Positions 3,205-33,466 of a DNA stretch of 33,466 nt are shown here, piece by piece. The position numbers and the translations under genes were made by a program. Position 1 is the first letter of the stretch, and every line of letters begins with the position of its first letter. Source of the stretch: Streptomyces glaucescens (GTDB lineage Bacteria; Actinomycetota; Actinomycetes; Streptomycetales; Streptomycetaceae). The notes below the pieces were generated by a model, which saw only the letters and a list, made by a program, of their open reading frames with translations, did not search any database and had not been told where the DNA came from. The stretch covers positions 1-33,466 of the forward strand of contig NZ_MUND01000311.1 of assembly GCF_002154375.1 (NCBI RefSeq), in the 5' to 3' direction.

Positions 3205-3579
3205 TCATCGTCCACGACCCGGGTCGTGAGGCGGGCGCCGGTGATGATCACCTCGCCCCTCCAGGTAGCGGCAACCGCTGTAGAGGCGGGTCACGGGTCG
3301 AGGAGCGTCTCCTGCGCAGGCCCGAGCGGGGGCCGGGCCCTCCTGGTACAGGTACAGCGCGATCGCGTCCCGGCCCGCCGTGCCCGGGGCGTCCGCCGCC
3401 CGCACGCCTGGGATCGTGGCGAGGGCGCGGTACTCGTGCTCCGTACGGGTCTCGGACGCGTCCGTGGCGTGGAAGAAGGCGCGGACCCTCGCCCTGACCT
3501 GCCGCGGGTCGTCGGGGAGGCTCTGGGGGAAGGCGTACTGCTCGCGGGGCGAGTGGTCGTCGCCCGCCCCGCATGGCAC
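3205..3579 (-). pseudogene. Remnant of a CU044_5270-family gene, frameshifted
   Basis: One minus-strand frame reads SPREQYAFPQSLPDDP near its start, then EYRALATIPGVR and AGRDAIALYLYQEG. These resemble the C-terminal domain of CU044_5270-family actinobacterial proteins (often next to sigma-factor genes), where a 'RALATIPGVR ... AGR.G.AL' stretch is followed by a 'LLDP' turn and a final strand. Here the ETLLDP piece lies in a different frame and the frame returns at TRLYSGCRYLEGRG, so at least two frameshifts separate the pieces. The segment before RALATIPGVR also looks shortened. No intact N-terminal part, start codon or ribosome site is seen. The family assignment is from memory and moderately sure; a broken gene of some kind is likelier than a real short ORF. 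Confidence 0.55.
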
Positions 3580-3656
3580 CCGGCTGTTGCCCGAAGGCTC
3601 CGGCGAGCGTCAGGTATCCCATGCGGATGAGCCCAGCCGCGGCCCGCACACAGCGC

Positions 3657-3691
3657 AGTGGCCCCCCGGTGCGAACCACCGGGGGGCCACT
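3657..3691 (-). terminator. Strong terminator at the end of the suf operon
   Basis: A 15-bp perfect stem (AGTGGCCCCCCGGTG at 3657-3671, complement at 3677-3691) with a 5-nt loop CGAAC lies about 20 bp after the stop of the last suf gene. No T-run follows, as usual in Streptomyces. It also separates the operon from the pseudogene. Confidence 0.85.
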
Positions 3692-15913: not shown

Positions 15914-16882
15914 CTAGCGCAGGAAGGGGTCCACCGCGACGGCGACGAAGAGCAGCGACACATAGGTGATGGACCAGTGGAACAGGCGCATCTCCTTCAG
16001 CTTCGCGCCCGTGACCTCGGCCTTCGCACGGTTCTGGAGCGCGTGCGCCTCCCACAGCCACCAGCCGCCCGCGACCAGGGCGACCGCGGTGTAGAACCAG
16101 CCGGTGTAGCCGAGCGGGGTCAGCAGCAGGGAGACCGCGACCATCACCCAGCTGTAGATCACGATCTGCTTGGCGACGGTCTTGTTGGAGGCGACGACCG
16201 GCAGCATCGGCACGCCCACGCGCGCGTAGTCCTCCTTGACCTTCATGGACAGCGGCCAGTAGTGCGGCGGCGTCCAGAAGAAGATCACCATGAAGAGGAT
16301 GACGGGGGCCCAGGCGAGCGAGTCGGTGACCGCGGTCCACCCGATCAGCACCGGCATGCAGCCGGCGATGCCGCCCCAGACGATGTTCTGCGAGGTCCGG
16401 CGCTTGAGGATCATCGTGTACACGACGACGTAGAAGAGGAGCGCGCCGAGGGAGAGCCAGGCCGACAGCCAGTTGACGGTCAGGCCGAACAGCAGGGTGG
16501 AGACCACCGCGAGGGTGATGCCGAAGACGAGGCACTCGCGCGGGCTGACCATGCCGGTGACCAGCGGACGCTGCGACGTGCGGTCCATCAGCGCGTCGAT
16601 GTCGCGGTCGATGTACATGTTCAGCGCGTTCGCGCCGCCGGCCGACAGGTACCCGCCGACGCAGGTGAGCAGCACCAGACCGAGGTCCGGCACGCCCTGC
16701 TCGGCGAGGAACATCACCGGCACCGTGGTGATCAGCAGCAGCTCGATGATCCGCGGCTTGGTCAGCGCCACGAACGCCTTCGCACGGGCCCCGAACGGCC
16801 GGCGACTCGGGCTCTGGCTCGTCCCGATAACCCCCGCAGGACGGGATTCAACGGCCGTCACGCACACCCCTGACAGAGACAT
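15914..16882 (-). CDS. ctaB: Protohaem IX farnesyltransferase (haem O synthase)
   Basis: The 322-aa UbiA-superfamily membrane enzyme adds a farnesyl group to haem B, giving haem O for CtaA and cytochrome oxidase. The first Asp-rich motif is [23 protein letters not shown] and the second region is [15 protein letters not shown]. Eight to nine transmembrane segments follow the opening [25 protein letters not shown] 16882 is chosen because GGGAGG lies 9 nt upstream. The frame is open to 16954 and a downstream GTG (16861) is an alternative. A minus-strand TACAGT (16937-16942) is a candidate -10. It diverges from tkt across the repeat array. Confidence 0.93.
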
Positions 16883-17020
16883 CCCAGCGAGCCTCCCGGT
16901 GTGAGGTGCCGGTAAAGGGCTCGCGCGTACCACGCCACTGTAGACGTTGCCCATACCCCGGCCTTCGCGGGGGTGGGGTCGTGTTGGGCGGCACGCTCCG
17001 GCGCGCGGACGGCGGGCCGG

Positions 17021-17204
17021 AAACGATCATCCGGACGATCACCGGGGCACCCCCGGACGATCATCGGAGCGGCCCCCCCGACGATCACCGCAGCGGCCCC
17101 GCGGACGAACTCCGGACGAACCCCGGACGAATAGTCCCGGACGGATTCCGGACGACCTCCGAACGATCTCCGGACGGTCGCCGGGGCGATCGTCGGACGG
17201 CCGT
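17021..17204. repeat. Array of ~16 tandem 11-bp units (CGGACGATCNC)
   Basis: Units begin at 17021, 17032, 17043, 17054, 17065, 17078, 17089, 17102, 17113, 17124, 17138, 17149, 17160, 17171, 17182 and 17194. Twelve of the fifteen steps are 11 or 12-13 bp and most are exactly 11. The strongest units read CGGACGATCAC, CGGACGATCAT, CGGACGAACTC, CGGACGAACCC, CGGACGGATTC, CGGACGACCTC, CGAACGATCTC and CGGACGGTCGC. In the first half CGGACGATCA units alternate with CGGAGCGGCCC-type units, giving a 22-24 bp higher-order repeat. The array fills much of the ctaB/tkt divergent intergenic region. An 11-bp period places each unit on nearly the same helix face. Confidence 0.8.
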
Positions 17205-17458
17205 TTTGCGGCCCCCTCAAATGGGCCGGTCGGGCGACGGTTGAGCGGTCAGATGAGCGCCTGCGTATTCACTTGGCGAAAGCCGGTACGGCCCAGTCAG
17301 GAGGCGGATTCCCGAGAGTCCCGGCAGTCTGTAATGACTCGAAAAAATGCACGTTCTCGCGGGGGTAGGCTCGACAAGGCCGGTGGGCGCGGAGTGCACC
17401 GGCGGTCGGTGTACGCCCACACCGGCATTCGACATGTGGAGAGGAGCCCTGACCCAGG
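17205..17458 (+). promoter_or_regulatory. tkt leader region
   Basis: About 250 bp between the repeat array and transketolase, less GC-biased than its surroundings, with an A-run at 17342-17347. TAGGCT at 17366-17371 is a candidate -10, with no good -35. GGAGAGGAG (17438-17446) is the ribosome site, 12 nt before the GTG. No conserved riboswitch fold is recognised. Confidence 0.35.
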
Positions 17459-19546
<2,088 letters not shown>

Positions 19547-32166: not shown

Positions 32167-33466
32167 ATGCCGGTGCACGACCGCCGCCCGGCACCCGGGC
32201 CGAGGGGCTTCAGGCCCGTGCGAGCCACCCTGCGCTGGGCGCACTCCGATCTGCGCACCCACCGCGGCGAGGCGGTGTTCCTCGTCCTCGCCACCGCCGG
32301 CGTCGTCGCCTCCCTGCTGCTGGCCACGGCCCTGTTCGGATACGCCACCAACCCCTGGCAGCGGGTCTTCGCCCAGGCGCGCGGCGCCCACGTGTGGCTG
32401 CACACCGACGAGTCGGCCGACCTGCGCGGACTGGCCCGGCTGGACGGCGTCGAGTCCGTCGCCGGGCCCTACCCCACCGCCTCCGCCACCGTCGCCGCGC
32501 GCGGCAGCCGCGCCTCCGTCGAACTGCGCGCCGGCTCCGCCGAGGTGCCGTCCGTGGGCCGCCCGCTGCTCGTCTCCGGTCGCTGGCTCGACCCGGCCGT
32601 CCCCGACGGCGTGGTCCTGGAGAGCCGGCTCGCCCGCGCGCTGCTCGCCGAGCCGGGCGACACCCTGACCCTGCCCGGCACCGCCCGCAGGCTGACCGTG
32701 GTGGGCGTCGCCGACAGCGCCGAGCCGCGCTACCGCCCGGGTGAGCAGCCGGGCCTGGTCTGGGCGCTGCCGTCCGCGGTACCCACCCCGGACGCCCAGG
32801 CCGTCGGGCTGCGGCTGACGGATCCCGGGGACACCGGGTACGCCGTCCAGCGCGCCGTGACGGTGCTGGGCGCGGGGGCGATCGGCGAGGTGTCCACCTG
32901 GCAGCAGGCCCGCGCCGAGGCACAGGGCGGCAACCGGCTCCTCGGGCAGGTGCTGGGGCTGTTCGGGCTCGGCGCGCTGATCGCCGCCGGGTTCGCCGTG
33001 CACGGGGCGATCAGCACCCGGATCCGCGGCCATCTGCGGGACATCTCCGTGCTGAAGGCGATCGGCTTCACCCCCGGCCAGGTGGTCCGGATCTTCCTCC
33101 TCCAGCATCTGGCGTACGCCGTGCTGGGCGCCGTGGCCGCCGCCGCGCTCACCGAGGCGCTGGGCAGCCGGATACCGGGGCGGCTCGGGGACGCGGTCGG
33201 GGTGTGGCAGGGGCTGCCCGGTCACACGGCGGCGCTCGTCGCGGTACCGGTGGCCGCCGTGCTGTTCATCGGCGCGACCACCGGACTCGCCGCGTGGCGG
33301 GCGGGCCGGGTGCCGCCGGTGCCGGTGCCGCTGCCCGCCACGCCGCTGGGCGGGCGGGCAGCGGGAGCACCGGGCCGGGGGCCGGGCCCGCGGACCGCCG
33401 TCTCCCCGGCCGCCGCGCCGGAGGACCGGCGACCGGGCGCGGCGCGCCGGTTCCTCGGGGCGGTCC
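32167..33466 (+). CDS. FtsX-like ABC transporter permease (partial, runs off the window)
   Basis: The frame is open from ATG 32167 to the window end, 433 codons without a stop. After a cytoplasmic start and TM1 (VFLVLATAGVVASLLLATALFGYA, ~38-61), a long extracellular MacB-like region follows (DGVESVAGPYPTASATVAARGS..., RWLDPAVPDGVVLESRLARALLAEPGDTLTLPG). Next come the FtsX core with TM segments LFGLGALIAAGFAVHGAI, IFLLQHLAYAVLGAVAAAAL and ALVAVPVAAVLFIGATTGLA, and the motif RDISVLKAIGFTPGQVVRIFLLQH. A Pro/Gly-rich linker begins near residue 380, and a second FtsX domain probably follows outside the window. Confidence 0.9.
   Translation, partial: MPVHDRRPAPGPRGFRPVRATLRWAHSDLRTHRGEAVFLVLATAGVVASLLLATALFGYATNPWQRVFAQARGAHVWLHTDESADLRGLARLDGVESVAGPYPTASATVAARGSRASVELRAGSAEVPSVGRPLLVSGRWLDPAVPDGVVLESRLARALLAEPGDTLTLPGTARRLTVVGVADSAEPRYRPGEQPGLVWALPSAVPTPDAQAVGLRLTDPGDTGYAVQRAVTVLGAGAIGEVSTWQQARAEAQGGNRLLGQVLGLFGLGALIAAGFAVHGAISTRIRGHLRDISVLKAIGFTPGQVVRIFLLQHLAYAVLGAVAAAALTEALGSRIPGRLGDAVGVWQGLPGHTAALVAVPVAAVLFIGATTGLAAWRAGRVPPVPVPLPATPLGGRAAGAPGRGPGPRTAVSPAAAPEDRRPGAARRFLGAV

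Follow-up and report, generated by a model that had tools for sequence, protein, structure and literature searches.

Operator phasing in the lac loop is one described system with which the locus analysed here can be compared. Fits to lac looping gave in vivo helical repeats of 11.60 and 11.08 bp (PMC1762422), and an in vivo helical repeat of about 11 bp is given in another report (PMC8501960). Among the described operators, those of SARP/AfsR regulators have direct repeats 11 or 22 bp apart with the 3' repeat 8 bp from the -10 box (PMC10936776), Streptomyces PHO boxes are 11-nt direct repeats of two to five units (PMC7866108), BldC sites are made of tandem 9-bp units, AATTXXXX(C) (PMC5859096), and for MtrA a site consensus, GTAACCNNNNNGTAACC, has been published (PMC12323332).

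The ctaB/tkt region has already been reported as a joint control region. In S. avermitilis OhrR binds the tkt2/ctaB intergenic region in EMSA, and in the ohrR mutant ctaB, tkt2 and the downstream genes rise; OhrR is reported to repress both sides (PMC6034001). The likeness to the present case is that it is the same intergenic region; the difference is that OhrR is a MarR-family repressor with an inverted-repeat box, which alone does not explain a variable spacer of direct repeats. Neither the lower amount of TktA1 that was reported for S. coelicolor lacking a functional argR (PMC3293853) nor the lack of a glucose effect on the SCO1935-SCO1942 cluster (PMC4848846) bears on the array described below. 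We found no account in print of this array or of the ladder of spacer lengths, in a search that covered few subscription journals.

The window, by which we mean the whole stretch of 33,466 bp that was analysed, comes from a draft assembly of 8.43 Mb in 1135 contigs. In it ctaB (minus strand) and tkt (plus strand) are divergent, with 591 bp between their GTG starts at 16867 and 17459. The features of the region are as follows.

15917-16867, minus strand: ctaB, a UbiA-family protoheme IX farnesyltransferase that starts with GTG at 16867; Pfam UbiA, 3e-70
16926-16953, no strand assigned: anchor A, conserved block on the ctaB side; A-E distance 51-53 bp in 207 of 217 intergenics
16978-16986, no strand assigned: anchor E, GTCGTGTTG, edge of the spacer on the ctaB side; among 110 sequences of the 52-bp class, 7 of 9 columns do not vary
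16987-17240, no strand assigned: length-variable spacer; E-B distance 272 bp here, while 139 of the 217 distinct intergenics have 51-53 bp
17006-17204, plus strand: the array, from the unit scan, TRF and lag-11 identity
17241-17258, plus strand: direct repeat TTGAGC-N6-ATGAGC, copies 12 bp apart; across 110 sequences the GAG of either copy has a conservation of 91-100%
17250-17281, plus strand: anchor B, conserved block on the tkt side; B-D distance 109-111 bp in 215 of 217 intergenics
17361-17376, plus strand: anchor D, GGGGGTAGGCTCGACA, at a near-fixed distance from B
17438-17458, plus strand: tkt ribosome binding site and end of the leader, conserved in the alignment and part of anchor R
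17459-19546, plus strand: tkt, transketolase, GTG start; Pfam Transketolase_N, 2e-141

By eye and by comparison with the consensus, we take TACAGT in anchor A (minus strand, 16942-16937) to be the -10 box of ctaB, and TAGGCT in anchor D (17366-17371) to be that of tkt. Promoter and terminator scans of 16850-17480 found none. The array fills the E-B interval, which is the strongly length-variable stretch between the two putative -10 boxes; the tkt leader, 3' of the putative -10 box, is also variable (42-98 bp). For ctaB, the best 80 relatives among the matches listed are at 88-96% identity. On the ctaB side GTCGTGTTG is adjoined by an imperfect inverted repeat (16955-16974, ACCCCGGCCTTCGCGGGGGT), which is largely kept in the aligned relatives. 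The same genome (G000) has a second transketolase-like stretch with 82% DNA identity on another contig (C377:647-1884).

A chained scan for CGGACGATCAC found 17 degenerate copies of CGGACGATCNC at 17006-17204 on the plus strand, with a mean step of 11.75 bp; ten steps are of 11 bp and two each of 12, 13 and 14 bp, and in four units (at 17006, 17043, 17065 and 17089) only 5-6 of 11 letters are matched. This chain is a result of the scan on its own, the shuffle statistics refer to lag identity. Lag-11 identity in the array is 0.52, while dinucleotide shuffles give 0.296 and none of 2000 came up to the value of the array (z 6.1); lag-22 identity is 0.42, and TRF reports a period of 11 with 14 copies and 64% matches. 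When lag-11 identity was taken in 150-bp windows, the array had the highest value of the whole 33 kb (0.553), the next separate place reaching 0.433. The array thus has the tandem units of a minisatellite (VNTR). A preliminary description had counted about 16 diverged tandem units, with runs at 17102/17113/17124 and 17138/17149/17160/17171 and a super-repeat of 22-24 bp in the first half; the runs were found again, the super-repeat is seen at 17032, 17054, 17078 and 17102, and the units are indeed diverged. Its statement that the units recur almost exactly every 11 bp holds for the period, which is far above that of the shuffles, and fails for the spacing, because the steps range from 11 to 14 bp. 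It had also proposed a DNA-binding protein, DNA curvature or insulation as possible roles: OhrR is reported to bind the homologous region of S. avermitilis (PMC6034001), and the array itself is a candidate seat.

Arrays with an 11-bp period are uncommon, not unique, and the one in the window is not strictly of this period. When TRF was applied to 400 kb of a related genome, it listed two repeats with a period of 11, and one of these exceeds 60 bp (in L334, lag-11 identity 0.54); the highest raw lag-11 identity in those 400 kb was a run of N. The longer one is a second degenerate 11-bp array in the nearest sampled relative (G380; L334:14519-14640), with a unit close to CGACCGGYGTC and 11.3 copies, situated between a predicted ORF of 389 amino acids and the next ORF. 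In the window itself a GC-rich repeat of 53 bp is present in two copies near the end (33288-33391).

The sequence of the array is not conserved. A search for the CGGACGATC array in 149 other genomes of the genus gave matches in 23 only, all short, with a best E value of 4e-5. Of the 139 taxa with flanks, the one closest to the window diverges from it by 4.6% in the flanks, and its spacer of 133 bp is without the array of the window. A lag-11 z of at least 2.5 was seen in only three of 80 named relatives (8.9 in L097, S. spiralis; 3.4 in L091; 2.5 in L033). The units of S. spiralis are closer to CTTCCGGCACC, and unit sequences in general differ widely between species. Conservation of the array sequence was therefore rejected, on account of the few short matches and the absence from the nearest sampled relative. 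A coding origin was rejected as well, since the 11-12 bp steps are not all multiples of three, and so was an RNA element: Rfam gave no match at E 1 in 16800-17600 and the folds of either strand are ordinary (z -1.4 and -1.6). The location of the array between divergent genes and its quasi-helical period would suit an insulator or a curvature element specific to this species and placed between both promoters. We consider this very improbable: 17021-17204 has 70% GC and, up to 17200, no run of four A or T, the relatives manage without the array, and the ordinary folds just mentioned also count against it.

What is shared between relatives is not the array but the way in which the length of the spacer varies. 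The sample consisted of 290 intergenics, including that of the window. L284, L300 and L305 were dropped before any counts because of a weak anchor, and merging of 24 identical sequences reduced the 287 anchored intergenics to 263 distinct ones; near-identical sequences and possible repeats of one species were kept. Both blocks were present in 217, which were usable, and 46 were set aside, 41 of them lacking a recognisable B block. The distances within the flanking blocks (A-E and B-D) are nearly fixed. In eight sequences the A-E distance was 47 bp and the anchor was shifted by 5 bp; L046 has 64 bp, and the two intergenics that deviate in B-D have 121 bp. The near-fixed B-D distance rules out that B was placed one unit off. 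Besides the 139 intergenics with an E-B distance of 51-53 bp, there are four with 41, four with 62, ten with 64-65, 15 with 74-76 and 12 with 86-88 bp; the others have 19 (three), 81 (one), 84 (one) or 95-315 bp (28). After re-anchoring none of the 217 falls at 54-61, 66-73 or 77-80 bp, and off-ladder lengths do occur (81, 84, 95, 100, 106, 107, 117, 125 and 186 bp). With 272 bp the window has the third longest spacer, behind 315 and 310 bp. Members of the 52-bp class are unlike each other at 50% of the positions in mid-spacer. In some intergenics the region has changed in other ways: in L102 (S. echinoruber) the same spacer is expanded by a 25-bp repeat (approximately ACCACCGGTCCCGGGTCCTCACCCC), unlike the unit of the window, and in L099 and L103, and by eye in L231, it is the TGAGC direct-repeat block that has been multiplied, to about three units with a period of 33 bp.

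Changes of spacer length were reconstructed on two trees. The better one was built from the ctaB and tkt flanks and has 139 of the 217 taxa, the other 78 having been left off because their flanks were too short. On this tree all 21 changes of 2-40 bp were of 11 (five), 12 (four), 22-24 (five) or 33-35 bp (seven); for one of the 21 the ancestral length, 19, is uncertain. The quantum is 11.45 bp (bootstrap 95% 11.29-11.61), and the mean cosine of these changes is 0.92 at a period of 11.5 bp as against 0.39 at 10.5 bp. Changes of 1 bp numbered 12; no change was of 2-8 bp, or one to two under size-dependent costs. The first tree was made from short flanking blocks and has all 217 taxa; it gave 36 changes of 3-40 bp, of which 31 were within 1.5 bp of multiples of 11.65, the exceptions being 9, 10, 10, 32 and 33 bp. 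Hence the ctaB/tkt gap in Streptomyces changed mostly by steps of about 11.5 bp, roughly one helical turn in vivo. The quantum lies within the published values of 11.08 and 11.60 bp for the lac loop (PMC1762422), but those were derived from a series of engineered spacers in E. coli, whereas the ctaB/tkt series is natural, extends across species, and would involve a putative looping protein.

Two other stretches served as controls on the same flank tree. The tkt leader had 41 changes of 2-40 bp, only 3 of them at ladder sizes (mean cosine -0.22 at 11.5 bp), and the spacer between ctaB and the next gene had 69, with 17 at these sizes (mean cosine 0.11); compared with the ctaB/tkt spacer, Fisher's test gave 1e-13 and 2e-10, respectively. 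The second control included 133 taxa, 6 of the 139 being left off, and its start codons were extrapolated from protein matches. The divergent pair at 3252-3657 was dropped as a third control because the right-hand ORF had no Pfam match.

These data have to be confronted with the main rival, mutational slippage without selection: a degenerate array of 11-12 bp units would slip by whole units as an ordinary minisatellite, the ladder would be purely mutational and the array would have no role. Slippage of this kind yields unit steps without selection, and variation of copy number in unit steps between relatives, as in a VNTR, is what we found for the spacer. In 68 spacers of 60-200 bp lag-11 identity has a z of 4.4 and lag-12 identity one of 10.1 (kinship ignored), and three insertions, +12 bp upstream of E in L046 and +11 bp downstream of B in L149 and L276, look by eye like tandem duplications of 11-12 bp. 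The 25-bp repeat in the same gap of L102, the other 11-bp array elsewhere in a relative and the absence of the window's array from the nearest sampled relative also fit. Bacterial minisatellites share with the spacer the tandem degenerate units and the varying copy number; in the spacer, however, changes of 2-8 bp are missing or rare, and lengths are quantised even where the units are barely alike. A neutral VNTR would be expected to have small indels, and the spacer has none of 2-8 bp (one to two under size-dependent costs) as against 29 and 22 in the controls. Slippage leaves unexplained why these changes are missing though 1-bp changes occur (2-8 bp to 1 bp, 0:12 in the spacer, 29:18 and 22:15 in the controls; Fisher 1e-4 and 2e-4), why 51-53 bp was kept in 139 of 217 intergenics despite the 50% divergence of the middle, and why phase is partly kept in intergenics without the B block (see below). 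We regard slippage without selection as less likely than not.

It must be noted that the period and the on-ladder sizes were picked after seeing the same data, and that the result depends on the parsimony costs, as the ladder counts vary across cost schemes. On the better tree flat costs gave 21 of 21 and 23 of 23, costs growing with size 23 of 28 and 27 of 34 (mean cosine 0.73 and 0.79), and over the other cost schemes the mean cosine at 11.5 bp ranged from 0.73 to 0.93. The short-block tree gave 27 of 35 with standard costs and 36 of 51 and 41 of 60 with size-growing costs (mean cosine 0.71 in both). The control counts of 3/41 and 17/69 stem from the original costs, not from the size-growing ones.

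The 46 set-aside intergenics provided a test set that was partly independent of the main one, and they back the phase rule moderately. In 42 of them the E-D distance is in phase with that of the main group at 11.5 bp, with a mean cosine of 0.41 (0.36 for 30 clusters, z 2.8). For the 40 without a recognisable B block it is 0.38 (0.32 for 28 clusters, z 2.4; clusters assumed independent), and the same test gives z 1.1 at 11.25 bp and a negative value at 10.5 bp. Strict phasing at 10.5 bp was rejected, given the low cosine on the better tree and the negative value in the test set.

Restriction of the changes to whole turns, as in a loop or a wrap, is thus found for changes of 2-40 bp. Changes larger than 40 bp number 18, and in six of these the starting length, 19, is uncertain. 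Their trend is no more than weak (mean cosine 0.24, z 1.5), so that phase keeping would be at most putative for an expansion like the +220 bp of the window. The preliminary description had suggested that phasing seems to be kept; this stands for the step size in relatives, with all 21 changes of 2-40 bp being whole steps of about 11.5 bp, and does not extend to the sequence of the array or to changes as large as that of the window.

The spacer is also in register with the TGAGC repeat. Across 59 non-redundant spacers of 62-200 bp, the dinucleotides GA, AG and GG keep in phase with B at 11.5 bp (none of 200 shuffles as good in each of nine tests), and the phasing persists at offsets of -110 to -52, where GG is barely above the best shuffle (4.19 vs 4.09). 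In the 52-bp class conserved GA steps lie at 22, 45, 57 and 80 from the start of E, that is one or two times approximately 11.6 bp apart. The spacer is thus made up of degenerate units which share their register with the TGAGC pair. Such a register would also be expected if each 11-12 bp unit were a candidate subunit site of a direct-repeat regulator (OmpR- or SARP-like), which would polymerise head to tail from the conserved TGAGC pair, with extra units tuning occupancy. The spacing of SARP repeats, 11 or 22 bp (PMC10936776), and the 11-nt units of PhoP boxes, variable in number and about one turn apart (PMC7866108), are compatible with this. BldC filaments have a likeness to the locus in their sites of varying length, bound head to tail.

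The consensus sequences of such regulators were compared with the array, with the TGAGC block and with relatives. TTGAGCG and ATGAGCG of the block resemble the SARP heptamer assumed here, TCGAGCG. A pair of this heptamer fits 17230-17247 with 2 mismatches, and none of 100 shuffles did as well; elsewhere, at 11-bp spacing, the pair is unremarkable (63 of 100 shuffles as good in the array, 53 of 100 in L026). If a 12-bp spacing is allowed, the SARP pair in the TGAGC block reaches 1 of 100. The PHO box heptamer is GTTCACC-like. Using this assumed heptamer at 11-bp spacing, the best pairs have 4-6 mismatches in 14 positions (19-74 of 100 shuffles as good), and at 12-bp spacing 2 of 100 shuffles are as good in the array, 1 of 100 in the block and 26 of 100 in L026. 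PHO boxes thus differ from the locus in their core motif, which is not found at 11-bp spacing, and in that the ctaB/tkt spacing is 11-12 bp. These standouts are a few of 21 motif/stretch tests, two of the motifs are assumed forms and the 12-bp spacings were chosen here; at the published spacing the array is no better than shuffles for any tested 11-bp motif. In SARP/AfsR operators the 3' repeat is close to the -10 box, while in the window ATGAGC (17253-17258) and the putative -10 box at 17366 are far from the 8-bp arrangement, the block being located about 100 bp upstream. The best MtrA sites in the tested stretches have 5-6 mismatches (66-100 of 100 shuffles as good), the best BldC sites 4-5 (50-100 of 100); the 9-bp units of BldC were not found in the ctaB/tkt stretches tested. 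For the OhrR operator, ACAATTNAATTGT, with about 3 mismatches allowed, the best site between anchors A and R of the window has 5, and relatives have mostly 5, some 4. None of the consensus sequences of PhoP (at 11 bp), MtrA, BldC and OhrR is therefore matched. The wide divergence of the units between species and the lack of a recognisable B block in 41 of the 263 distinct intergenics also argue against an iterated operator, which we consider improbable. As these intergenics (L220-L224, L250-L252 and others) are without the B block, the genus has either lost or gained this control element in the course of its history.

The explanation that we find best, although we hold it with a confidence slightly short of even, combines duplication with selection for rotational phase. 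Tandem duplication of 11-12 bp would change the length of the spacer by whole steps, and selection would purge those changes which rotate the ctaB-side block against the tkt-side block, as would be required if the two sides had to lie on the same helical face for a putative nucleoprotein complex that they share, be it a loop, a wrap or a regulator that binds direct repeats. A change of 1 bp rotates the blocks little, changes of 2-8 bp much and changes of 11-12 bp hardly, which would be why 2-8 bp changes are missing and 1-bp changes present. Selection for phase would also account for the 139 of 217 spacers that remain at 51-53 bp in spite of their divergent middle; duplication accounts for the origin of the steps, not for this constancy or for the missing 2-8 bp changes. 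The array would then be a length allowed by the phase rule, in which the sequences of the individual units matter little. As part of the same explanation, and with the same slightly less than even confidence, the array of the window would be a species-specific expansion of about 19 steps (+220 bp) above the usual spacer length.

A bolder reading, which seems to us possible but rather doubtful, is that the spacer is a natural evolutionary ruler, in which selection recorded the helical repeat in vivo (about 11.5 bp) and which the array of the window lengthened by about 19 turns. The quantum agrees with the helical repeat in vivo, not with that in vitro. Phase-dependent regulation is usually shown with engineered spacers; here a whole genus provides the series, at a promoter pair of core metabolism. 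The ladder points to a putative architectural complex that would span ctaB and the operon of the pentose phosphate pathway. Quantised spacer lengths are a simple test that can be applied to other promoters.
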